From positions 1-64,000 of the forward strand of contig NZ_JADWYX010000001.1 of assembly GCF_016786355.1 (NCBI RefSeq): 64,000 nucleotides of DNA. The letters are read 5' to 3'. The stretch is from Frankia sp. AgB1.9. Its GTDB lineage: Bacteria; Actinomycetota; Actinomycetes; Frankiales; Frankiaceae. The notes beneath the pieces were generated by a model. It was given only the letters and a program-made list of their open reading frames with translations, ran no database searches and had not been told where the DNA came from. The position numbers and the translations under genes were made by a program. Below, in pieces: positions 52,632 through 64,000 of the stretch; the first letter of the stretch is position 1, and every line of letters starts with the position of its first letter.

Positions 52632-53108
52632 ATGACCGAGGACGCCCCCCGGCCGGCGTCGACGTTCGTCCGTAGGAATGAGCGCCTGGACCAGCTGTTG
52701 TCCGATCCGCAGCTCGCCGCCGACGTCGCCGAGGCGCACGCCGCCGCCGAGGAGATGGACCGGGTCTACGCCATGAACCTTGCGATGATCCGCAAGGCGG
52801 CACAGATGACCCAGACCGAGGTCGCCAAAAAGCTCGGAGTCGGCCAGGCCGCAGTCTCCCGCCTCGAAAGCCGCGAGGACATGCTCCTGTCCACCCTGTA
52901 CGACTACCTCACCGCCACCGGCGCCGACGCCGCCAGCATCGTCGTCACCGTCCACGGACGCCGCATCGAACTCGACCTCGCCAGCATCCGCGCCCCCCAC
53001 GCCGCCTCACCCGCGCGGCACTCTGTCGATCTAGTCGGAGTCGTCATTGGGGACCCGGGCGGCGTCGGGGCCAAGAAGGTTGGACCAGGCCGTTGCGCGG
53101 CAACGTGA
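52632..53108 (+). CDS. XRE-family antitoxin-like regulator (orphan)
   Basis: A 158-residue protein. Residues about 50-110 are a HigA-like helix-turn-helix: MNLAMIRKAAQMTQTEVAKK, LGVGQAAVSRLESREDMLLS, then TLYDYLTATGAD and VHGRRIELDL. The last 45 residues after that look like read-through of formerly non-coding DNA. GAGGAGAAG precedes the ATG. The position just upstream (52220-52631) is where a HigB or RelE toxin gene would sit, but no frame there reads as one, so the toxin may be decayed. It ends 18 nt from the convergent helicase gene. Confidence 0.72.
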   Translation: MTEDAPRPASTFVRRNERLDQLLSDPQLAADVAEAHAAAEEMDRVYAMNLAMIRKAAQMTQTEVAKKLGVGQAAVSRLESREDMLLSTLYDYLTATGADAASIVVTVHGRRIELDLASIRAPHAASPARHSVDLVGVVIGDPGGVGAKKVGPGRCAAT

Positions 53109-53126: not shown

Positions 53127-55370
53127 TCAGGTGCCCTCTGGTCGGGAAGGCAAGAGGGGGCTAGGCGTCACGCTCCAGCTGATGACAAGAGTGTCGCGGG
53201 CTCGCGTGGTGGCGACGAAGAGCAGCGAGCGGGCTTTACGAACTTCCTGGGCGTAGCGGGGCGGGTCTTCGGCCTTGTAGCGGTCAATGGCGGCCCGGGG
53301 GATGACACCGGCGGACACGGCGGTGATCGCGAGCTTCTGGTACTCGAGGCCTTTGAAGCGATGCATGGTCCCGACGTGGATGTCGCCGTCGCCCTGGGGG
53401 CCGTCCTTCGTGAGCTCGGCGCAGGCGAGTCCCGCGCCTGTGAGGTGGTGGATGGCATCGGCGACGCGCTCGCGGTCGGCGACACAGACGGCGATGCGGC
53501 CGGTGGGGTCGAGGGTGAGTGCCTTGAGCTCGGCCCGCCATGCGGAGACGGTTTCGACGAGGCCGCCGAGTTCCTTGTCCCAGGAGCTGTACCCCCGGAC
53601 GTCGGGCACGCGGCCCCGGAGGATGGCGCGATAGCCAGCGAGAGTGTCCGTGCCGTCGTCGAGGTCGTCGTAGGTGGTGTGGGCGGGGTCGACAACCTGC
53701 TGGGCCCAGCCGAGGATCTCGCGGGTGCTGCGGTAGCTGAGGGTGAGGCGGGTCGACCGGCCGCGGATGTTGATGCCGAGTGGACCCAGCGTGACGTAGT
53801 GGTCGTAGATCCGCTGGTGGGTGTCGCCAGCTAGGAACAGGTCGTTGGGGCCCGCCGGGTTGGCCATGGCCCGCAGCATCTTCCAATGCGCGGCCCGGAG
53901 GTCCTGCGCCTCGTCGACGACGATGTGCCGGTAGCGCCACGTCAGGTTGCGCCGCCCTGAGCTGTCGTCGTCCGCGGGCGTGGTGCCGCGCTCGGCGACG
54001 CGGCGGGCCCGGTCGGTCTCGTAGCGGGCCGCGCGCTCCGCAGCCTGCCCCCAGGTCTCCATGCCGAGCTTGTCGAGGCGGGCGGTGAACTGCTCGACGA
54101 GCTTCCAGACCTGGTTGCGTTCGACTCGGGTGAGGGCCGTCCCGCGGCCAGCGCGGCGGACCGCGAAGTAGTCGGCACGGGTGGTGACGGACTGGCCGAG
54201 GATGACCTGGTCCCATTCGTCGAACAGGAACGGTGCTTCCCAGCGGATCTCGCTGACCTCGGCGAGAAGCTGGCGGAGCTCGCTGGCGGCGACCTGGTCG
54301 CTGACGCGCTTTTTGCGATGTTGAGTGGATGTGTTCTCGCCGAGGACGCGGGCGGCGAGCTGGTCGATGTGCGTGACATCGACGCGGGCGAGCAACGCCG
54401 GCTCGATCAACGACGCGAGGCGCATGCGCAGGTCAGCGGCCAGGTTCGCCGTGTAGGTCGTGAGGAGGATTGGCTTGTCGATACCCGGCGGGAGCTTCTC
54501 TACCAGGTGTTTGACGCGGTGGAGCGCGACGATGGTCTTACCGGTACCCGGCCCGCCGGAGACACGTGCGGGTCCGCGGTAGTTCGCGTAGGCGACGCGA
54601 CGCTGGGTGGGATGCAGGAAGACCTTCCAGGCACGGAAGTCGCCCTCCTCGATGGCCTGTTGAAGGGTCTCGTCCACCGCGGTGACCTGGGTGCGCCGTA
54701 GAGCGGCGGGCAGGTCGGTGCGGTCGGGTTCCTCGTTGAGGCGGACCTGAGCGGTGATCTCGGCGCGGACCTCGTCAACTGTCATACCTGCGGCCAGCGC
54801 GTAAAGGATGTCCTTCGACAGCGGCGGGGCGCCGGTGAGCAGCAGATCCAGCTCGGCGTCGGTGGTGACACGGAGCGCTAGGTCGACCAGCGCCTCGGCG
54901 ACGCCGAGGCTGAGTAGAAGCTCGGCGTCGTAGTCAGCGAGCCGGGGCTTCGTGGGTTCCGGGAGCACCGGAGGCGCGACCCGGCCACGGGCCGCGCTGG
55001 CGAGGTCCGCGCGACGGACGCTGCTGTCTCCCAGAACGGTGAGATCGACGCATTCGATCTCACCGGTGATCCGGTTGATGTCGACCTTTAGCCCGTCGTA
55101 GACGTCCTTGCGATCTCGAACCGCGATGACCAGCCAGTTCTGAGTGCCGTCCCCGTCGACGCCGGCGCGCAGCAGTAGCGCGCGATGGTCGGGGCCGACC
55201 TTCGCCCGGTAGACGTGCGTATGACCCTTGAGCGGCTTGAGGTCCAGGCCGGGGTGGTCAGGGTTGGCGCGGAAGTGGTGGCAGAAGTTGAAGTAGTCCG
55301 CCTTCGCCTTCTGGCTGAGCTTGTAGAGCTCCTCTTCGGCCTTGCGGTACATGCTGACTCGGGCGGTCAT
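53127..55370 (-). CDS. UvrD/Rep-type helicase with N-terminal RelE-like domain
   Basis: A 747-residue superfamily 1 helicase. Residues about 5-95 look like a RelE/ParE fold: YKLSQKAKADYFNFCHHFRA, LKPLKGHTHVYRAKVGPDHR and WLVIAVRDRKDVYDGL. The helicase core has the Walker A GGPGTGKT (about 270), DEAQD (about 485), YRSTREILG, a motif V-like TMHRFKGLEYQKL and motif VI ATTRARDTL. Its ATG overlaps the stop of the giant helicase gene (TGATG), so it is the last gene of the defence-like operon. It probably unwinds or translocates on DNA for the nuclease or methylase partner. Confidence 0.88.
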   Translation of the reverse strand: MTARVSMYRKAEEELYKLSQKAKADYFNFCHHFRANPDHPGLDLKPLKGHTHVYRAKVGPDHRALLLRAGVDGDGTQNWLVIAVRDRKDVYDGLKVDINRITGEIECVDLTVLGDSSVRRADLASAARGRVAPPVLPEPTKPRLADYDAELLLSLGVAEALVDLALRVTTDAELDLLLTGAPPLSKDILYALAAGMTVDEVRAEITAQVRLNEEPDRTDLPAALRRTQVTAVDETLQQAIEEGDFRAWKVFLHPTQRRVAYANYRGPARVSGGPGTGKTIVALHRVKHLVEKLPPGIDKPILLTTYTANLAADLRMRLASLIEPALLARVDVTHIDQLAARVLGENTSTQHRKKRVSDQVAASELRQLLAEVSEIRWEAPFLFDEWDQVILGQSVTTRADYFAVRRAGRGTALTRVERNQVWKLVEQFTARLDKLGMETWGQAAERAARYETDRARRVAERGTTPADDDSSGRRNLTWRYRHIVVDEAQDLRAAHWKMLRAMANPAGPNDLFLAGDTHQRIYDHYVTLGPLGINIRGRSTRLTLSYRSTREILGWAQQVVDPAHTTYDDLDDGTDTLAGYRAILRGRVPDVRGYSSWDKELGGLVETVSAWRAELKALTLDPTGRIAVCVADRERVADAIHHLTGAGLACAELTKDGPQGDGDIHVGTMHRFKGLEYQKLAITAVSAGVIPRAAIDRYKAEDPPRYAQEVRKARSLLFVATTRARDTLVISWSVTPSPLLPSRPEGT

Positions 55371-58300
55371 CAGGCGCCTTCCGGGTCCGGGAGGAGCAGC
55401 GTGCGCAGGTCCTCGAGGTGCTCAAGCCATCCGACGGCGGTGTTCACCGTCCAGCCGGCGGCAAGGTACGCGGCGACGCGTCGTTCACCCTCGTCGTCGC
55501 CAGGCTCATGGGGTACGACGACTGCTGCCCTGGCCGGTTCGTCCCAGCCGAACTCGGCGAGCCAGCGGTGGGCGCCCAGCTCGTAGCCGAAGACGGGAGC
55601 CGGCGCGCCGACGCCGACGAGGGCCTCGGCGAGGCGGAGCAGATCGGGGTTGTCGGCTGGATCGTCGCGCAGTATCTCCAGGATGTCGGTCCAGCCGGGA
55701 TCTGCCAGCGCGTCGGCGCCGTGCGAGGGCGTGCCCGCTGGGACAGGCTGCTCCGGGACCGCGACGGGTGACGGCAAGTCCGGCGCGGGGACTCCGGGCA
55801 GCGAGTCGAGCTCACCCATGCCGTCACAGGCCCGGAGGACCTCGACGGGGAAGTCGGCTGCCTCGCTGGCGGCGAGCTGAACGCCGTCGCCCTCGCCGAA
55901 GGCGAGGAACTGGGTCAGGTTCGTCCAGTACAGCCAGGCCCGCCAGCGCAGCCGGTGGGCAGGATCGTCGAGCGCGGCGTCACGATCGTCGAGTATGGCG
56001 AGAACGGTCCAACGCGGTGCCTCCGGCTCCGACATGTCGAGGATGACGACGAGCGGCAACCCGGCGTCGTCCCGTGCCCGGAAGACGACCAGATGTCCGG
56101 GTGATCCATCGGGCACCACGGCGGATGGTCTGCCGTCGCCGGCGAGCGCACGCAGCTCACCGCGAACCGCACGGGCGACGTCCTTCGCCTGGTCCGTGGT
56201 GACGACTTGTTCGATGCCCGACGATCGGAGGAGGCCCATGGCCATCGCGCCGGCCGGACCGAGCCAGCGGGTGGGAGCAGGCGCTCGCAGGTAGGCGATC
56301 AGGCTCGCGATCGGATTGGCGAAGACGGTTGGTCCGAGCTGGGCCCGCTGCCCACCGAGCCGTTCATACCCCTCCCGCGCCGCCTCCTCAGCCTGCCCGC
56401 CATAGGGGGGCCACACGGGCACCGCCTCCCGGCTGCCGCCGAAGAGGTCCAGGTCGTCCCAGGTGATCTGGAAGACGACGTCGCGGCGGGCACGGAGCCG
56501 GGCCCGCTTGGCGGCGTCGTGGGCGATCCGGTTGTGGGCGTGGGTGGCGTGGAACCGGAACCCTTCGAGGTAGACGTGGACCTTCTGTCGCGGCCCGTCG
56601 ACCCGGGTGAACGTGAAGTCTGGCCGGGTGCCGTCGGCTGGGTCCTGGGCGGTGAGCCGCCAGTGGACGACTTCGTTGCCGGCGGTGAACCGGAGATGGC
56701 CGCTGGCGTGGCCCTCCTCGTCGAGCGCGACATCGTCGGTGATCCGCGCCCAGGTCCTTAGCGTCGCGAGGAAGCGGGCCTCCAGGTCGGACTCGACCTG
56801 CTGGTCGAGTCCAACCGTGCCGGTGTCCTCAATGGCGGTGACGTCCCAGCCGTCGCCGCCGCCCGCGTCGAACAGCAGAGGCTCCAGCATCGCCAGCGCC
56901 GCCCGACGAGAGACCACGTCCTGTCGCGATTCCGGCGCGTACAGGTGCAGACAGCGGTGGCAGGCTCGACGCTGCTCCTCGGCGCACGGGCAGTCGAGCA
57001 GCTTGTCGTAGGCGGCGCGCAGGGTGTCGCGCATGGCGTCCGGCGCGGTGAGGCGGTCGAGGTAGCCAGTCCCGCCAGGTAGCGAGTCGAACAGGACGAG
57101 GAACCAGCGTCGCTCACCGGTCGCCCGGTCGGGCATGGACGCGATCGTCGTGGCGAGGTGCTGTGGATCGCCGCCGAAGTGCAGGTCCACGCCCATCCGC
57201 AACGCGGCCCGCAGTGACTCGACCCGTTCGTCGACGTCGGCGCTGGCCACCGGCAGAAGCACCCGCAGGGCCTCGGTGCGCAGCTGGTGGGCGAGCAGCA
57301 CCGGCTCCTGGGTGACGCCCGCGTCGCGCTTACCGCGACGCAGTGGGCACCACGGCCGGTGATGCCGCAGAGCCGGGTCGCGCGTCGCCGACTCGGACAA
57401 CGCGTCTGACGGTGGGTTGAACACGGGCTGGCCGTCGGCGGTCGCCGCGCCGCAGCCGGTGCACACGAAGAACGGAGCGAGGCGCAGCCGGTGGCCCGCG
57501 AACTGGTCGCGCGCCTGGGCGTCGAAGCGCATCGGGCCGACGTTGACCCGGCGGATCATCGCGGTGCGGCAGTAGTCGACGCCGAAGGTCTGATGGGTGT
57601 GCCGCCACGATCCGGGTTCGATCCGGTCGGCGGGGAAGTCGACGGCGTCGACCTCGGTGTAGAAACGCCGCTCGCGCTCGTCGTGGTCGTCGCTGATCCG
57701 GGCGTCCTCCTGCTTGTCCCGAGAGGTGACGGTCACCGGCTCGACGACCTGGAACAGGCACGAGCCGTCGTCAGCGATCTGGACCGAACTGCACCTGGGG
57801 CACGGGGAACGGTCCTCGGTGGCGTTGTCGGTGCGGACGTAGCCGCATTCGGGGCAGAACCGCCACCGCAGCCAGTCCCGGCGCCCATCGGTGGCAATCT
57901 CCAGACCGGTGACCTGATGGCGGTAGCCGTTGACGTAGAAGCTGTTGCCCGGTGCCAGCTCCGAGAGCGCGAGCCGCCGCGGCCGTTCGTACTCGACCAG
58001 GTCGGACGTGAACCGGATCTTGCCGGTGATGGGATCGACGCTCTCCGGGCCGTAGATCGCCGCTGACAGTGTGGTCACCGCGTCGATCAGCGCGTAGTTC
58101 GGCAACAGCCCCAGATCGCAGAGTGCGGTCGAGGCCGGGGTCTGACCGAGGTCGAGCAGCCGGCGTCCGACGGCGCGGTGCTCGGCATCCAGCTCGGCCT
58201 TCAGCACAGCCTGTTCTTCGTTGCTGTCGTGCAGCTCGTCGCGGGCCTCGCCGATCGCGCGCAGCCGGTTGCGCAGCGCCTCCTCCTTGCCGCGCCACTC

Positions 58301-61300
58301 CCGCTCGGCCGCTTCGACGGCTCCGGCGAGGCCGCCGGTCGCATAGCCGCGCAGCTCGCCCTGGGCCTGCTCGCTGATACCGGTGGGGAACAGACCGAGG
58401 AAGCGCTCGACGAGCGCGGCTCCGTCATGGAGCGCGGCTGTTACCAGGTCGACCAGATAGCCCGAGGGGCCGAAGAGCTTGGGCGCCCGCGTCGGCAGCG
58501 GGCGCAGCGGCACCTCGTCCGGCCGTGGCAGCCGGCCCGCGGCGGCCAGGTCCAGCAGGTGCGCCAGGTACTGGCGGCGCAGGATCTCCACCGCGGACAG
58601 GTAGCAGCCCGGCGGAACGATCGTCCCAGCGATCATGTCCTTCGGCTGGTCCATGAAGTAGAGGTCCCGCCGCCGCCGGTCCAGGATCGTCAGCAGGAAC
58701 GCGTTGCCCGTCCGGCGCCCGGCCCGGCCGACCTGCTGGGCGTAGTTGGCCGGCCGGCGAGGCAGCGCCGCCAAAACCACCGCCGACAGATCCCCGACGT
58801 CGATGCCCAGCTCCAGCGTCGGTGTACACGACAGCACGTTCGGAGCCTTGAACCCCTCCCCGTCGCGGAAGGCCTTCTCGACCCGCTCCCGCTGCGGCCG
58901 GGTCAGCATCCCCGTGTGCTCGGCGGTGATCACGTGGTACGGGCCGGCGGTCCGGTACAAGCGCCGGTAGTAGTCCTGGGTGTAGTCACGGTCGCGGTGA
59001 TGACGGCCGAGCCCGGCCGGCTGGTCACCGGCAACGAGCCGGCCGTCGCGGCACCGGTAGGACGGGCACGGCTGGCCACGCCACTGGTCGAGCAGCGACG
59101 GGTGCACCGTCTGCTCCCAGAAGCACACGGGGCAGCGGACGAAGGCGACCCGTACCTTGTCATCCGTCAGGAGCTCCGCTTCGATGGCTCCCGGTAGCAG
59201 ACCGTAGACGCGAGCCGAGCTGTCGAGCGGCGTGTGCACCGCGAGCAGACCGGCCCGCACGAGCGCGGGCAGCGCCTCGCTCCAGAACTCGTCGGCTTGG
59301 TCGCGGGTCACCTCCAGACAGCGCTGCGCCCACCGCTCGTACCAGGACAGCCGGCCGGTGGCGACATCGAACTCGGTGCGGTTCTTCGGCTTTGCGAGTA
59401 GGAACTTCGGCGCGGCAATTCCGCGCGGAAACGCGCGCATGCCCAGTGGCCTTCCGCCCCAGACCTGGTAGCGGTTGGTTCCCGCCTCATCGAGGTAGCC
59501 GCCCAGCCACTGGTGCGCCACCGCGCCCCGGGTGCGCAGACGTTCCAGGAACACTCGCAGCAACGCCAGGTAACGTGCGTCGTCCTGCTCCTGGACCTGC
59601 ATCTCCGTGCGACCGAGCCCACGATGGATCTCGCGGGCCATCGCGGCCGCGCCTGCGGGATCCCGCATGAGGACGTGCGCCGCGGCAGTGCGAGTCAGCT
59701 CCAGGGTGCGGCCATTCCGCGAGCGGAAACCGAACTCCATCAGCGTGTCGAAGGCGAGGCGCTGCCCGATCAGATCCCAGGTCGCCCGGTCACCACCCTT
59801 GCCGGACAGCAGCCGCTCCACCGGGCGCAGCCCATGCAGATCCGGCGGCACCACGGCGGACAGCGTCTTGTCCTCAGCCGGTGCCTCGTCGACCGCCGTG
59901 ATCACATCGGCGATCAGGTCGTTGAGCGCGGTCGGCGCGTCCGTTGACAGCCGGCTGACCAGCAGCGCGCGCAGCGAGAACGTGAAGGACCGAGTCGCGA
60001 CGAACCCGGCTCGGTGGGCTGCGTCCTGGACCGAGTCGTTGAACATCAACGTCTTGTCCTCGTGCAGCGAGCGGTCCAGCTCACCGGACGTGAAGAGCTG
60101 CGTGATCGACGCGGCGGCGAGCGCCGCCGGACCGGTGCCCAGGAAACGAATCGCGTTGCGTTCGCCGCACGCCGGGCACCAATCCTGCTCCGCGGCCGTG
60201 TTCGCCGACGGGCCGAGCTGCACGAGGACGAACGCGCTGTCTGGCGCTAGCCGAGGCGTCCGCTTCTCAGGGTCGAAGTCCCGGTCGAGAACGGGTATCC
60301 GCAGCCGCTGCGTCATCGTGTCCAGGACCTGCACCTCTCCGCCCACGGACAGCAGCGTCGACCCACCGGTGCGGGCGCCGGGCCGGCCGAGCCGTGCGCC
60401 GGCCAACGCCTCCTCGTCGGTCGCCGCGATCAGAGCGCGGACCCGCAGCTTGTCCGGGCCGACTGACGCCCGACGGATCTTGAAGGTGTCGAACTCGACG
60501 ACGGCGTCATCGCTCTCCGGCGAGAACACCGCCCAGCCCGACCGGCCGCATGCCCGGCAATAGACCGCCGGCAGGAACACGTTCGCCGCCTGGACCGCCG
60601 TCGTCGTCGCGGCCGGCAGCACGCGGCCCCCATCGTCGGGGACAGCGGCCATCGTGCCGGCCACATCCCACCGGAACTCTGCCCGCGGCCACGGCAGTAC
60701 ACCGCGCAGCAGCTGCGACACGGCGCGGGCCCACTGGTGCACCTCGACGTGCACGAAGGGCCGCGGCGTCCGCTCGCCGCGCGAAGCCGGATCACGGGCC
60801 CAGGACAGCAGGGCGACGAACCGGGCCAGCGCCTCGGCCGCCTTCTCCGGCCGGCGAGTGACCGCCTCCGACCAGTTCGCGGCGCCGTGCCGCCACATCA
60901 GGTCCAGGATCTCCGGACCGGTCCGCACCTCGTCCCCGAGTGCCAGCAGCACCGCCCTGGTGAGCACATGGTGACGCAGCCGCTCCGCCAGCGCGAACGG
61001 GTCCAGGTTCTCCTCGTCGGTCACGGCCGCGGCCAGCCGGGCCAAGCCGTCGTCCGTCGTCGACGGATTCGGTAGCGCGAGCAGTTCCTCTGGTGTGGGG
61101 AGCGATTGATGGATCAGATCACCGGACGGGATGAAGTCGTCTACCGACTGCCGGCTCTCCCCGATCACCGCGTCCGCCGTGACGGCGGTGCCGAACACCT
61201 GGCTCGCCACGTCGAGCAGATCGCGCAGGCCGGACTCGCCAGCGGACGCCAGCGTCGCCGACGTCGCCACCGGGCAGATCGCTCCCAACGGCCGGCCGGG

Positions 61301-62065
61301 CTCCGCGGCGCCCACCGCCGAGGCGAGCCGGCGCAGGAGCATCGCGACGTCCGTGCCTTGCGCCCCGTCGTAGGTGTGGAACTCGTCGACGACGACGTAG
61401 CGGATGTCCGCGCCCGCCCACAGCGCCACGTCCTCGCCGCGGTGCAGGAGCTGGTCCAGCATCTTGTAGTTCGTGATCAGAATGTCCGGCGGCGACAGGC
61501 GCATGTCCGACCGGCTCGTCAGCACCCGGTCGTAGGTCACGGCGGCCTTATCACCGATGTAGAGGCCCGCCCAGACCTGGTTCAGATCCCTGGTATGGAT
61601 CGTGAGAAGCTCGTTGATCCGGTTCGCCTGGTCCGTCGCCAGCGCGTTCATCGGGTACAGGAGCACGGCCTTCACACCGGCCCTGCCAACGGCCCGTTCG
61701 CGGCGGCAGTGGTCCAGCACGGGGTACAGGAACGACTCCGTCTTGCCCGAGCCGGTGCCCGTCGTGACCAGCGTCGGCTCCGGCACGTGGCCCTGCGCCG
61801 AGGTCAGCCGGGCGAACGCCGCTGCCTGATGCGCATAGGGGAAGAAGCGCTCCGGGCGCCATTCGAGGTGCTGCTCCCAGCCTGGTTCGGCCAGGGCGAA
61901 CGGAGTCCGGACCCGCAGGAACGGGCCTCGGAACATTCCGGAGGTCTCGTCGCCCAGAAAACGGTGCAGGGCCTCCCTCGCGCCCTCGTCAGCGAGCGCA
62001 TAGGTGGTTGTCAGGTACTGCAGCAGGCTCTCCTTGAGCCCCTGCGCCTCCAATGTCGGCTTCAT
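55370..62065 (-). CDS. Giant DruE-like SF2 helicase with DUF1998 and PD-(D/E)XK-like C-terminus
   Basis: A 2231-residue protein. Helicase domain 1: Walker A TTGTGSGKTES (about 102-111) and DEFH (227-230, within YVVVDEFHTYDGAQGTDV). Helicase domain 2, at about 1080-1130, has PTLELGIDVGDLSAVVLAAL and QQVGRAGRRTGNAF. Cys clusters run through the chain: CRACGRSG (about 505), CPACGERN (about 630), CPVC and CPSYRC (about 980), CPECGY with CPRCSS (about 1405-1430). DUF1998 follows at about 1535-1705 (FVCTGCGAAT, GGTGYLDRL, CPCAEEQRRACHRCLHLY). At about 1815 RPDFTFTRVD is followed by VYLEGFRFH, a nuclease-like motif. ATG 62065 chosen from the ATGA overlap. Size and order resemble Druantia DruE. Confidence 0.88.
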   Translation of the reverse strand: MKPTLEAQGLKESLLQYLTTTYALADEGAREALHRFLGDETSGMFRGPFLRVRTPFALAEPGWEQHLEWRPERFFPYAHQAAAFARLTSAQGHVPEPTLVTTGTGSGKTESFLYPVLDHCRRERAVGRAGVKAVLLYPMNALATDQANRINELLTIHTRDLNQVWAGLYIGDKAAVTYDRVLTSRSDMRLSPPDILITNYKMLDQLLHRGEDVALWAGADIRYVVVDEFHTYDGAQGTDVAMLLRRLASAVGAAEPGRPLGAICPVATSATLASAGESGLRDLLDVASQVFGTAVTADAVIGESRQSVDDFIPSGDLIHQSLPTPEELLALPNPSTTDDGLARLAAAVTDEENLDPFALAERLRHHVLTRAVLLALGDEVRTGPEILDLMWRHGAANWSEAVTRRPEKAAEALARFVALLSWARDPASRGERTPRPFVHVEVHQWARAVSQLLRGVLPWPRAEFRWDVAGTMAAVPDDGGRVLPAATTTAVQAANVFLPAVYCRACGRSGWAVFSPESDDAVVEFDTFKIRRASVGPDKLRVRALIAATDEEALAGARLGRPGARTGGSTLLSVGGEVQVLDTMTQRLRIPVLDRDFDPEKRTPRLAPDSAFVLVQLGPSANTAAEQDWCPACGERNAIRFLGTGPAALAAASITQLFTSGELDRSLHEDKTLMFNDSVQDAAHRAGFVATRSFTFSLRALLVSRLSTDAPTALNDLIADVITAVDEAPAEDKTLSAVVPPDLHGLRPVERLLSGKGGDRATWDLIGQRLAFDTLMEFGFRSRNGRTLELTRTAAAHVLMRDPAGAAAMAREIHRGLGRTEMQVQEQDDARYLALLRVFLERLRTRGAVAHQWLGGYLDEAGTNRYQVWGGRPLGMRAFPRGIAAPKFLLAKPKNRTEFDVATGRLSWYERWAQRCLEVTRDQADEFWSEALPALVRAGLLAVHTPLDSSARVYGLLPGAIEAELLTDDKVRVAFVRCPVCFWEQTVHPSLLDQWRGQPCPSYRCRDGRLVAGDQPAGLGRHHRDRDYTQDYYRRLYRTAGPYHVITAEHTGMLTRPQRERVEKAFRDGEGFKAPNVLSCTPTLELGIDVGDLSAVVLAALPRRPANYAQQVGRAGRRTGNAFLLTILDRRRRDLYFMDQPKDMIAGTIVPPGCYLSAVEILRRQYLAHLLDLAAAGRLPRPDEVPLRPLPTRAPKLFGPSGYLVDLVTAALHDGAALVERFLGLFPTGISEQAQGELRGYATGGLAGAVEAAEREWRGKEEALRNRLRAIGEARDELHDSNEEQAVLKAELDAEHRAVGRRLLDLGQTPASTALCDLGLLPNYALIDAVTTLSAAIYGPESVDPITGKIRFTSDLVEYERPRRLALSELAPGNSFYVNGYRHQVTGLEIATDGRRDWLRWRFCPECGYVRTDNATEDRSPCPRCSSVQIADDGSCLFQVVEPVTVTSRDKQEDARISDDHDERERRFYTEVDAVDFPADRIEPGSWRHTHQTFGVDYCRTAMIRRVNVGPMRFDAQARDQFAGHRLRLAPFFVCTGCGAATADGQPVFNPPSDALSESATRDPALRHHRPWCPLRRGKRDAGVTQEPVLLAHQLRTEALRVLLPVASADVDERVESLRAALRMGVDLHFGGDPQHLATTIASMPDRATGERRWFLVLFDSLPGGTGYLDRLTAPDAMRDTLRAAYDKLLDCPCAEEQRRACHRCLHLYAPESRQDVVSRRAALAMLEPLLFDAGGGDGWDVTAIEDTGTVGLDQQVESDLEARFLATLRTWARITDDVALDEEGHASGHLRFTAGNEVVHWRLTAQDPADGTRPDFTFTRVDGPRQKVHVYLEGFRFHATHAHNRIAHDAAKRARLRARRDVVFQITWDDLDLFGGSREAVPVWPPYGGQAEEAAREGYERLGGQRAQLGPTVFANPIASLIAYLRAPAPTRWLGPAGAMAMGLLRSSGIEQVVTTDQAKDVARAVRGELRALAGDGRPSAVVPDGSPGHLVVFRARDDAGLPLVVILDMSEPEAPRWTVLAILDDRDAALDDPAHRLRWRAWLYWTNLTQFLAFGEGDGVQLAASEAADFPVEVLRACDGMGELDSLPGVPAPDLPSPVAVPEQPVPAGTPSHGADALADPGWTDILEILRDDPADNPDLLRLAEALVGVGAPAPVFGYELGAHRWLAEFGWDEPARAAVVVPHEPGDDEGERRVAAYLAAGWTVNTAVGWLEHLEDLRTLLLPDPEGA

Positions 62066-64000
62066 CGCTTCGGCACCTCGCGGGTCACCGGATCCCACTC
62101 GCCGCGCGTGACCGCGTCATCGAGCCGCTGCTGGAACACCGCGTGTGCCGCGCGCATCTCCTGCTCGCGGTTGGCCTGGTAGAAGGGGCCGGTGTAGCCC
62201 TTTGGCACTTTCCTGGGATCCTTCGGCGGTTCCGTAGGATCCTGGAATTCGCGGTAGGCCGCGAACTGCGCCCAGCTCTCCTTGGTCTGCCGCTGGCCGT
62301 ATGTCCGTGCGTTACCCGCGATCTTCCACCCGTCCGCGTCGAACCACGTCACCGAGTCGTACTTCTGCAGCACCGGGAACCGCCCCCGGTAGGCCGCGAT
62401 GAGCGCGTCCGCACTCATCCCGATCCACACCGCGACCAGCGCGTCGATCTCGACCAGCGCCGCCCGGCGAGCGTATTCGGAGCGCAGCGGCGTGCTCCAC
62501 CGCCAATTGGGCGTCACATCGTTGAGATCCGCCAGATCGGGCCAGCGTAGCGCCCAATTCTCGATCTGAGGCCAGGCCGGGTCGAACAGCTCCGCCCAGA
62601 GATCGGCGTAGGCGCTCGTCAGGCAGTTCAGACGCAGGGTCCGCAGCAGCAGCGCGGATGCCAGCGGGTAATGACGGTTCGGGGCCGGCATGGATTTCGC
62701 GCTGTTGACCTGTACGTGGCCAAGCCCCGTCGCACGAAGGAAGTAGTCCACGGGAAGGGACGACCAAAATCCGCCGAGCAGCACAGTATGCCGTGGTTCT
62801 GGCAGGGCAGTGCTGTGCACACCGTGAACATGCGACGCACCCGGTGGGATGAGCGCACCGTAGAGGGCCCGCTCCGTGTCAGGTGCGATTTGGGCCCGCC
62901 ATGCGAGGCGGTAAAAGTGGGTGTACGGACGCCGGGCCTCGTCCGCCAGCCTGGCCTCGACGGCGAGGTCGAAATCAGGGCCAATCAGATCGGTCGTCGA
63001 CGATACGTCGTACCTCAGCCTGGCAACGGTCTCAGGGTCTTCCCGGAGGCGGTCGAGGACCGCGTGATCGACCCATTGGTCCCGGTCACGGGCGGCATCG
63101 AATGCGGCACGGTTGTCTTCAACCGGTACATACGGCGTGTCAGGTACGAAATCAGGAGGCAGTTCCACCAGGTTGTAGCCGTACGGATCGTTCGGGTTCG
63201 CGTCGTGGCGCTTGAAGACGGGCGTCGCGGTGGCGATCTGCACTCCCTTGAGAATCACTTCGCCCCAGTCCGCTGGCTGATACTCGCCCCCGGAACTCGA
63301 CGACCGATCGTAGTCGATCAAGCCGGCCTCCTTCGCGCCGGCCTCGTCGAAGCCGCGAGCGATCGGGGCGTCGAACGCGCCGAGCCGGAGCGGGTAGGCA
63401 GCGAGAGCCGCGATCGCGTCAGCCTCACCGGTGCTCACGGGAGACAGCAGACGTGCCTGCTGGTGAGGCTGCGCCTTGTCGTCCAGGAGGCGCTGCCAGA
63501 TCCGGAGTGTTTCTGGGGTGATCTCGACCACGCGAGATCTGTGTGGTCGCTCGTCGTACTCGGCATTCCGATACCGGACGCCTGGTACCTCGCCCGACCC
63601 ATCGTGACTCTTCGACGAGCGAAGTGCGTCCGGGGAGACCAGCCAGGAGAGATTGTCAAAGTAAATCTCCCTCGGCGATCCATAGATGTGAACGCCAAAG
63701 TGAGATGAATGTCCGATGGGTGGAGGGAAGAAGCGTCCAGCATTTACGAAGTCGCCGTGGACGCGCAGCCTAGAATACGCCTCCTCGCGGATTTTCCCTT
63801 CGTTGTCGCCGGTGAAATGGGTATCAGGGTGAAGCATGCCGATCGTTCCGGCCAGGCTGCTATGAATCCACGTCTGCCACATGAAGGCGCGGTATAGGTC
63901 TGGCTGCGTGCCAGCGATCAACGGGTAGACCTGCGGCGAGCTGAGGTAGGCGACCTGGGCGCTGACCTTCGTCAGTTCGGTGAGGAATCTCTGGGACGCC
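62062..64000 (-). CDS. Adenine-specific DNA methylase-like protein (5' end outside window)
   Basis: The open frame runs off the window edge, so only about 645 C-terminal residues are seen; the catalytic N-P-P-Y motif would lie upstream. The visible start (LYRAFMWQTWIHSSLAGTIG, MLHPDTHFTGDN, then EAYSRLRVHGDFVNAGRFF) matches the region after motif IV in Eco57I/PglX-type N6-adenine methylases. The rest is a long specificity-like part (LGGFWSSLPVDYFLRATGLG; LASALLLRTLRLNCLTSAYA; GMSADALIAAYRGRFPVLQK). It is coupled to the giant helicase gene by ATGA. Probably the modification or type IIG-like subunit of the operon. Confidence 0.7.
   Translation of the reverse strand, partial: ASQRFLTELTKVSAQVAYLSSPQVYPLIAGTQPDLYRAFMWQTWIHSSLAGTIGMLHPDTHFTGDNEGKIREEAYSRLRVHGDFVNAGRFFPPPIGHSSHFGVHIYGSPREIYFDNLSWLVSPDALRSSKSHDGSGEVPGVRYRNAEYDERPHRSRVVEITPETLRIWQRLLDDKAQPHQQARLLSPVSTGEADAIAALAAYPLRLGAFDAPIARGFDEAGAKEAGLIDYDRSSSSGGEYQPADWGEVILKGVQIATATPVFKRHDANPNDPYGYNLVELPPDFVPDTPYVPVEDNRAAFDAARDRDQWVDHAVLDRLREDPETVARLRYDVSSTTDLIGPDFDLAVEARLADEARRPYTHFYRLAWRAQIAPDTERALYGALIPPGASHVHGVHSTALPEPRHTVLLGGFWSSLPVDYFLRATGLGHVQVNSAKSMPAPNRHYPLASALLLRTLRLNCLTSAYADLWAELFDPAWPQIENWALRWPDLADLNDVTPNWRWSTPLRSEYARRAALVEIDALVAVWIGMSADALIAAYRGRFPVLQKYDSVTWFDADGWKIAGNARTYGQRQTKESWAQFAAYREFQDPTEPPKDPRKVPKGYTGPFYQANREQEMRAAHAVFQQRLDDAVTRGEWDPVTREVPKR

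Follow-up and report, generated by a model that had tools for sequence, protein, structure and literature searches.

An ARMADA type II operon headed by a Hanks-type kinase gene in Frankia sp. AgB1.9 and related actinobacteria

Organization of the operon

The DNA analyzed here (hereafter the window) comprises positions 1–64,000 of a 184,757-base contig, NZ_JADWYX010000001.1, from the actinobacterium Frankia sp. AgB1.9, whose genome measures 9.79 Mb with a G+C content of 69%. The end of the window cuts through a five-gene operon, which is completed within the following 20 kb of the same contig and lies entirely on the minus strand. In order, its genes encode a Ser/Thr kinase, an SNF2/BrxHII-like helicase, a giant methylase with an NPPW motif, a DruE/YprA-like helicase, and a RelE-UvrD helicase. 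The last four correspond to ArmA, ArmB, ArmC, and ArmD of the defense system ARMADA type II, in the published order; the first belongs to a kinase family that recurs upstream of armA in a large actinobacterial group.

A preliminary description of the window, drawn from the sequence alone, had reported three leftward genes joined by ATGA and TGATG overlaps, and both the open reading frames (ORFs) and the junctions were found as given: three long leftward ORFs, the last of which ends at 62062 and leaves the window (Table 1), with TGATG joining armC and armD and ATGA joining armB and armC. Beyond the window, armA and armB meet in GTGA. Extension past position 64000, which had been recommended for the methylase N-terminus and additional genes, recovered the remainder of armB together with armA and the kinase gene at approximately 64001–71997 in extended contig coordinates. 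The armC product measures 2231 aa when read from the ATG of the ATGA and 2242 aa when read from an upstream GTG. Helix-turn-helix (HTH) genes, both on the plus strand, flank the operon on its two sides.

Table 1. Features of the operon and its flanks; positions in locus L006 are given for parts beyond the window.
Feature	Position	Strand	Description
armD	53127..55370	(-)	747 aa; RelE/ParE-like N-terminal domain (~residues 1-110) and GajB-like UvrD helicase
armC	55370..62065	(-)	YprA/DruE-like superfamily 2 (SF2) helicase, MZB/DUF1998 domain, and putative C-terminal Vsr-like nuclease domain
armC C-terminal part	55370..56881	(-)	Putative Vsr-like nuclease and further C-terminal domains
armB 3' part	62062..63999	(-)	PglX/type IIG-like adenine methylase; 1831 aa whole; extends to ~67557 (L006:2063-7558)
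armA	~67554-70784 (L006:7555-10785), outside window	(-)	SNF2/BrxHII-like; true start possibly further in
Hanks-type kinase gene, operon head	~70747-71997 (L006:10748-11998), outside window	(-)	416 aa
HTH gene	52632-53108	(+)	Ends 18 bases from armD end
HTH gene, divergent	L006:12263-13606, outside window	(+)	Begins ~265 bases from kinase start

Assignment to ARMADA type II

ARMADA was defined in a recent preprint, in which type II was active against phages in E. coli (Bell et al., 2025; PMC12458937). As laid out in its main text, type II consists, in strict order, of a BrxHII/RapA-like ArmA, a PglX-like ArmB, a YprA-like ArmC with a Vsr-type nuclease, and a RelE-fused, GajB-like ArmD (PMC12458937). 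In E. coli, where the copies of NCTC 12900 and ATCC 8739 were studied, all four proteins were required and protection was non-abortive (PMC12458937). Over aligned columns, the window proteins share 33.1% (ArmA), 31.6% (ArmB), 29.2% (ArmC), and 31.5% (ArmD) identity with those of ATCC 8739. Mutations that abolished or reduced defense were reported at ArmA K136 and D236, ArmB G605 and N971, ArmC K110 and D234, and ArmD K266 and D454 (PMC12458937); these numbers were published for NCTC 12900, and the ATCC 8739 copy has the same residues at those positions. All eight are conserved in the window operon. K213 and D312 of ArmA align with K136 and D236, the NPPW and GSG motifs of ArmB with N971 and G605, and K278 and D486 of ArmD with K266 and D454. 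ArmC aligns with its E. coli counterpart at 29% identity and 623 bits over residues 12–1883 of the 2242-aa reading, as against 109 bits for the best piece aligned with E. coli DruE.

Judged by sequence and gene order, the membership of the four-gene core in ARMADA type II is secure. The core is therefore a known system, and the earlier statement that no named system has exactly this set was mistaken, because the last four genes match ARMADA type II in order, in identity, and in eight of eight residues; type II is the set then described, plus a BrxHII-like helicase in front. Among 5426 complete E. coli genomes, 518 have a near-identical armC (at least 95% to the armC of L035), and 15 of the 525 places are on plasmids.

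Protein families were assigned with Pfam and with PADLOC profiles, for which at most 25 matches per protein were shown and whose 2023 database (PADLOC-DB) is older than ARMADA. ArmA matched DrmD (6.5e-73) and BrxHII (1e-43) in PADLOC and SNF2 in Pfam. The profiles of ArmB were type IIG/DrmMI-like, with Eco57I in Pfam (E 2e-10); its NPPW motif sits approximately 130 bases beyond position 64000, so that the label 'methylase-like', assigned from within the window, was a correct guess. For ArmC, PADLOC returned DruE (2.5e-84; best profile DruE3) and Pfam returned DEAD, Helicase_C, and MZB (a DUF1998-type zinc domain), bearing out the earlier placement of DUF1998 and helicase in one 2231-residue chain. 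ArmD matched GajB (E 1e-23) and the Pfam family UvrD-helicase (7e-22). A 14-row profile of its N-terminus gave five best matches in PDB at E 5e-4 to 0.04, namely a 'toxin-like protein', 'hypothetical protein PHS013' (which we take to be an archaeal RelE), YoeB twice, and RelE. Pfam matches were weak there, with ParE_like in 10 of the 14 members (E 0.05 for the window member) and ParE_toxin in 3. A UvrD helicase with a RelE-like domain, as had been proposed for this gene, agrees with these results.

In a one-entry comparison, hhalign aligned the C-terminal part of ArmC to a single Vsr protein with a probability of 91.5% (E 8.6e-7), and five shuffled controls scored 0.1–0.9%. Several residues are well conserved: D88, H111, D122, and D143 occur in 21 of 21 rows of one alignment (A3) and E34 in 20 of 20 ungapped rows, and in a second alignment (A4) D122 and D143 are replaced by N in 1 of 21. 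An AlphaFold2 model of this part reached a mean predicted local distance difference test (pLDDT) score of 85. Other results count against a Vsr-like nuclease. At the position aligned with the aspartate of the Vsr DG motif, the 21 A4 rows have Asp in 14 and Glu in 7, the window protein among the latter; a Foldseek search with the 503-aa model returned nothing significant, with no E under 0.27; and Pfam found no family in this region of the window protein and MTES_1575 and DUF559 in 1 of 21 members each. A PDB sequence profile matched designed proteins only. The Vsr call depends on hhalign, because the PDB profile, Foldseek, and Pfam gave it no support.

Distribution and inheritance of the kinase gene

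The gene before armA encodes a Hanks-type kinase (Pfam Pkinase, E 1e-35). With a 12-row ArmB alignment, 80 genome loci were fetched as a near-relative set. At every one of its 74 evaluable loci, armA is immediately preceded by a homologous kinase gene (39–68% identity) of the same orientation. The set is biased toward near relatives and the kinase clade because it comprises the best 80 of at least 568 relatives. Not evaluable were L050, L093, L103, and L112 (no ArmA found) and L067 and L098 (no upstream room); L025 and L107 are the same locus. L103 has an armB relative and complete flanks; the census detected neither armA nor the kinase gene nor armC there.

A sample intended to reduce this bias comprised 393 genomes chosen evenly across the class; ArmB is encoded in 40 of them, including the window's own. 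The sample provided 38 loci from 36 other genomes, leaving aside a second piece of G501 and the fragments of G515, G618, and G642 at contig ends. Here the kinase was present in 21 of 37 evaluable loci and absent in 16 (L194 is cut by a contig end). No same-strand counterpart was found in 22 evaluable relatives outside the kinase clade (25 rows were labelled as having none, and L098, L194, and L117 lack room for the gene), nor does a kinase gene precede armA in those plasmid relatives outside the clade that have sufficient upstream sequence (L034, L116, L118, and L119) or in the E. coli chromosome L196.

An ArmA tree, for which a quick search was used, included 65 of the 122 ArmA rows, none of them from DISARM or Druantia, with the root placed on four plasmid rows. 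The 41 rows with a kinase all fell into one clade (Shimodaira–Hasegawa-like approximate likelihood ratio test [SH-aLRT] support 100), in which L194 was the sole other row. Skipped from the ArmA set were L031, L035, L050, L067, L093, L103, L112, L165, and L120; in L165, armA is divided into two ORFs, with the kinase upstream. The named genomes of the clade in this tree come from the Streptomycetaceae, Micromonosporaceae, Streptosporangiaceae, Kineosporiaceae, Pseudonocardiaceae, Nocardiaceae, and Thermomonosporaceae. Kinase presence follows the system and not host taxonomy, because the window's own genus has both kinds, with the gene in L175, L177, and L183 and none in L189, L190, and L193.

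Kinase and ArmA distances are correlated with r 0.905 over 97 rows, the maximum of 1000 permutations being 0.088; such co-divergence is joint inheritance, as expected of any two co-inherited genes, and does not alone establish joint function. A kinase tree was built from 28 of the 97 ARMADA kinases and 28 controls, the latter taken from the 30 highest-scoring of the 67 Pkinase matches in the window's genome. The two groups lay on opposite sides of one branch (SH-aLRT 100). Additional kinase genes were seen at some loci: L044 (1598-5334) and L095 (689-5421) have two more, in tandem, upstream of the ARMADA kinase, and L178, L082, and L091 have a second, more distant kinase-like ORF (33–34% identity) at or just past the end of armD.

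The main text of the ARMADA preprint has 0 occurrences of the word 'kinase' (PMC12458937), and no kinase-bearing ARMADA is described in the titles and abstract openings retrieved on ARMADA or on kinases with DISARM, BREX, or Streptomyces. A 2026 survey of BREX has, in the text available, 0 occurrences each of 'ARMADA' and 'UvrD' (PMC12839542), and another article mentions ARMADA once in its available text, without a kinase (PMC12904381). The kinase arm is new, in that the ARMADA type II of one large actinobacterial group carries a fifth gene absent from the main text of the defining paper.

Form of the kinase

The catalytic motifs are largely intact across the 97 ARMADA kinases, with GxGGMG in 96, AVK in 91, HRDLKPxN in 84, and DFG in 93. 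A hydrophobic 19-residue stretch (value at least 1.9) occurs in 3 of 97, versus 23 of the 28 control kinases, and the ARMADA kinase is for this reason probably soluble. Pfam detected no sensor domain in the window's copy. A Foldseek search with the model of a relative's kinase returned Ser/Thr kinases, with PknA and PknB among the 50 matches shown.

At the C-terminus, a variable linker is followed by a short conserved segment (approximately A..LR..YA). In the last 30 residues, this pattern is present in 76 of 80 kinases and 0 of 28 controls; it was drawn up after inspection of the tails, two earlier and stricter patterns having matched 29 and 36 of the 80. The four misses (L049, L087, L091, and L113) are close variants by eye. 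In an AlphaFold2 model of the L037 kinase, the kinase fold was predicted with high confidence, residues 323–367 had pLDDT below 50, and residues 370–384 formed a helix, with a mean pLDDT of 82 over 371–380 and 60 over the last eight residues. This conserved C-terminal helix suggests a fixed protein partner.

Insertions between armB and armC

Among the 67 evaluable loci between L036 and L115, armB and armC are adjacent in 31 and 1.1–9.7 kb apart in 26 (L054, L057, L069, L072, L076, L095, L107, and L109 are examples of separation), and 10 more have no armC within the 9–10 kb flank. In the even sample together with L027 and L028, the two genes are separated in 7 of 20 kinase-bearing loci versus 0 of 16 evaluable kinase-less loci. 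By similarity, the 42 separated loci contain an HTH gene resembling the one in L069 or L057 (38 loci), HATPase_c_2-like (25), GmrSD-like (18), and AAA_21/OLD-like genes (14), and a caspase-AAA_12 helicase (9), where the stretch considered extends to the locus end if armC falls outside the fetched sequence. If the kinase-gated reading is borne out, the defense-like Streptomyces genes for GmrSD, the caspase-helicase, and the OLD-like ATPase between armB and armC could make the clade a modular super-system.

Two loci outside the kinase clade have further genes in or next to the operon. In L116 (Haematobacter), a WYL-domain gene (L116:2886-3746) occupies the position of the kinase in the actinobacterial clade, and a 0.85-kb gene with a weak Peptidase_M78 match (L116:11716-12564) lies between armB and armC; this locus is outside the set used for the separation counts. 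In L034 (Tsukamurella), the ARMADA type II operon, whose armC is annotated as two genes, is immediately preceded by a stretch (L034:1260-6169) with a DISARM-like annotation that holds a helicase-related gene and a separate gene for DUF1998.

Possible roles of the kinase

These findings very probably describe an ARMADA type II operon in which the kinase is a functional partner. By analogy with the E. coli system, ArmB would methylate host DNA as a mark of self. Phage DNA that is unmarked or replicating would be located, unwound, and degraded by ArmA (an SNF2 translocase), ArmC (a YprA helicase carrying a Vsr-like nuclease domain), and ArmD (a RelE-UvrD helicase). The soluble Hanks kinase, encoded first in the operon, may dock on an Arm protein via its conserved C-terminal helix and phosphorylate one or more Arm proteins, thereby acting as a gate on either the methylase or toxic restriction. 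A similar proposal has been made for Pgl, for which PglW kinase activity is necessary and in which, in the authors' view, signaling, probably by phosphorylation, activates PglX (PMC4365076). Gene content and order, homology, the conservation of catalytic residues and of the kinase tail, and the linkage and co-divergence of the kinase are observed in the sequences; phage defense in this host, self-marking, docking, the phosphorylation target, and the direction of control are elements that we infer.

Direct gating of an Arm protein by the kinase has, in our estimate, an even chance of being correct. The wider proposal is more tentative and falls just short of that: throughout the clade, in at least seven named families, a dedicated cytosolic Hanks kinase, tethered by its docking helix, would phosphorylate the methylase or the helicase-nuclease and so time restriction.

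Several points weigh against the kinase as a functional partner, besides the bias of the near-relative set and the late choice of the tail pattern. To our knowledge, no ARMADA that includes the kinase has been studied experimentally. The segments specific to kinase-bearing ArmA–D offered no clear phospho-acceptor; they comprise an ArmB linker of low conservation (parts of residues 932–1045) and other short pieces. Next to armA of L186, a locus outside the clade, lies a kinase-like ORF (30% identity) in divergent orientation. The five genes are not necessarily cotranscribed in all members, because armB and armC are split by other genes in many Streptomyces of the clade. Finally, E. coli ARMADA II functions as four genes without a kinase (PMC12458937).

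A rival explanation, which we regard as possible though not favored, is that the kinase regulates the operon only, phosphorylating a transcription factor or sensing stress and thereby setting the expression of armA–D without touching the Arm proteins. It contests the gating step and leaves the ARMADA II identity as it is. The first position of the kinase in the operon and the divergent HTH gene upstream in the window's contig would suit such a role, as would the upstream regulators of some defense operons, for example the WYL gene before armA in L116 and CapK/CapS (PMC13373217). However, the conserved C-terminal helix suggests a fixed protein partner, and CapK is a GHKL kinase, unlike the Hanks kinase here (PMC13373217); a CapK-type regulator was rejected on this ground.

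That the kinase is a hitch-hiking bystander upstream of a plain four-gene ARMADA II is improbable: four genes suffice in E. coli (PMC12458937) and kinase genes are common (65 of the 67 Pkinase matches in the window's genome are above the cut-off), but the gene's presence in every evaluable near-relative locus, its restriction to one clade, its co-divergence with ArmA, and a tail pattern seen in none of the controls speak against chance company.

ARMADA II systems with and without the kinase, even within one genus, offer natural pairs for testing whether phospho-control helps a large methylase-helicase defense system, of the kind to which BREX, DISARM, and Druantia also belong, to restrain its toxic activity.

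Comparison with known systems

That the operon is a subtype of DISARM, Druantia, or BREX has next to no likelihood: the best PADLOC profiles of three of its proteins are DruE, DrmD, and type IIG/DrmMI, in a database that predates ARMADA, but the DUF1998-helicase fusion is unlike DISARM, ArmC is nearer to E. coli ArmC than to DruE, the matches shown for its proteins include no PglZ, BrxC, or DruH profile, and the gene set and order fit ARMADA type II. The preliminary description had likened the parts of a candidate anti-phage system to DISARM and Druantia. A probable multi-gene anti-phage operon, intermediate in character between those two, is supported. The outcome that had been named as refuting the proposal, a clean match to DISARM, BREX, or Druantia, did not occur; the operon falls cleanly into ARMADA type II.

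DISARM class 1 shares an SNF2 helicase and a PglX/DrmMI-like methylase with the operon. It was rejected since DrmA and DrmB are separate there, whereas DEAD, Helicase_C, and MZB here form one 2231-aa chain; moreover, the operon has no separate PLD-nuclease gene and includes a RelE-UvrD gene. Druantia type III has in common the DruE-like giant YprA helicase, in keeping with DruE3 as the best profile of ArmC, and DruE of this type is reported, in the text available, to be a helicase-nuclease that prefers 3'-tailed DNA (PMC13192584). It differs in lacking the additional methylase, SNF2, and UvrD genes and in the bit scores of ArmC given above; Druantia was rejected because the matches shown for each of the five proteins included no Dru partner profile (DruH for type III). 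With MADS, the kinase shares a match to PADLOC mad6 (8e-55), near its best match, PD-T4-6 (4e-55). This looks like generic kinase similarity; the matches shown included no other mad profile for any protein of the operon, and a literature search for MADS with a kinase found no paper.

ARMADA type II shares the ArmA–D order, the fused DUF1998, the RelE-UvrD fusion, the Vsr-like nuclease, and the eight tested catalytic residues. The window operon differs from it by its 29–33% identity and by the extra Hanks kinase gene upstream of armA, which extends ARMADA II by a component missing from the main text of the defining paper (PMC12458937).

BREX type 2 (Pgl) likewise combines a Hanks-type kinase and a PglX-type methylase in an actinobacterium (PMC4365076). 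It was rejected as an assignment because no PglW, PglY, or PglZ was among the matches shown and the 416-aa kinase has no NERD match: PglW has several domains, among them NERD and two that are kinase-like (PMC4365076), whereas the kinase here is small and stands alone. If the proposed gating is true, a kinase-gated ARMADA would stand beside PglW as another, separate instance in which a kinase controls a PglX-type defense.

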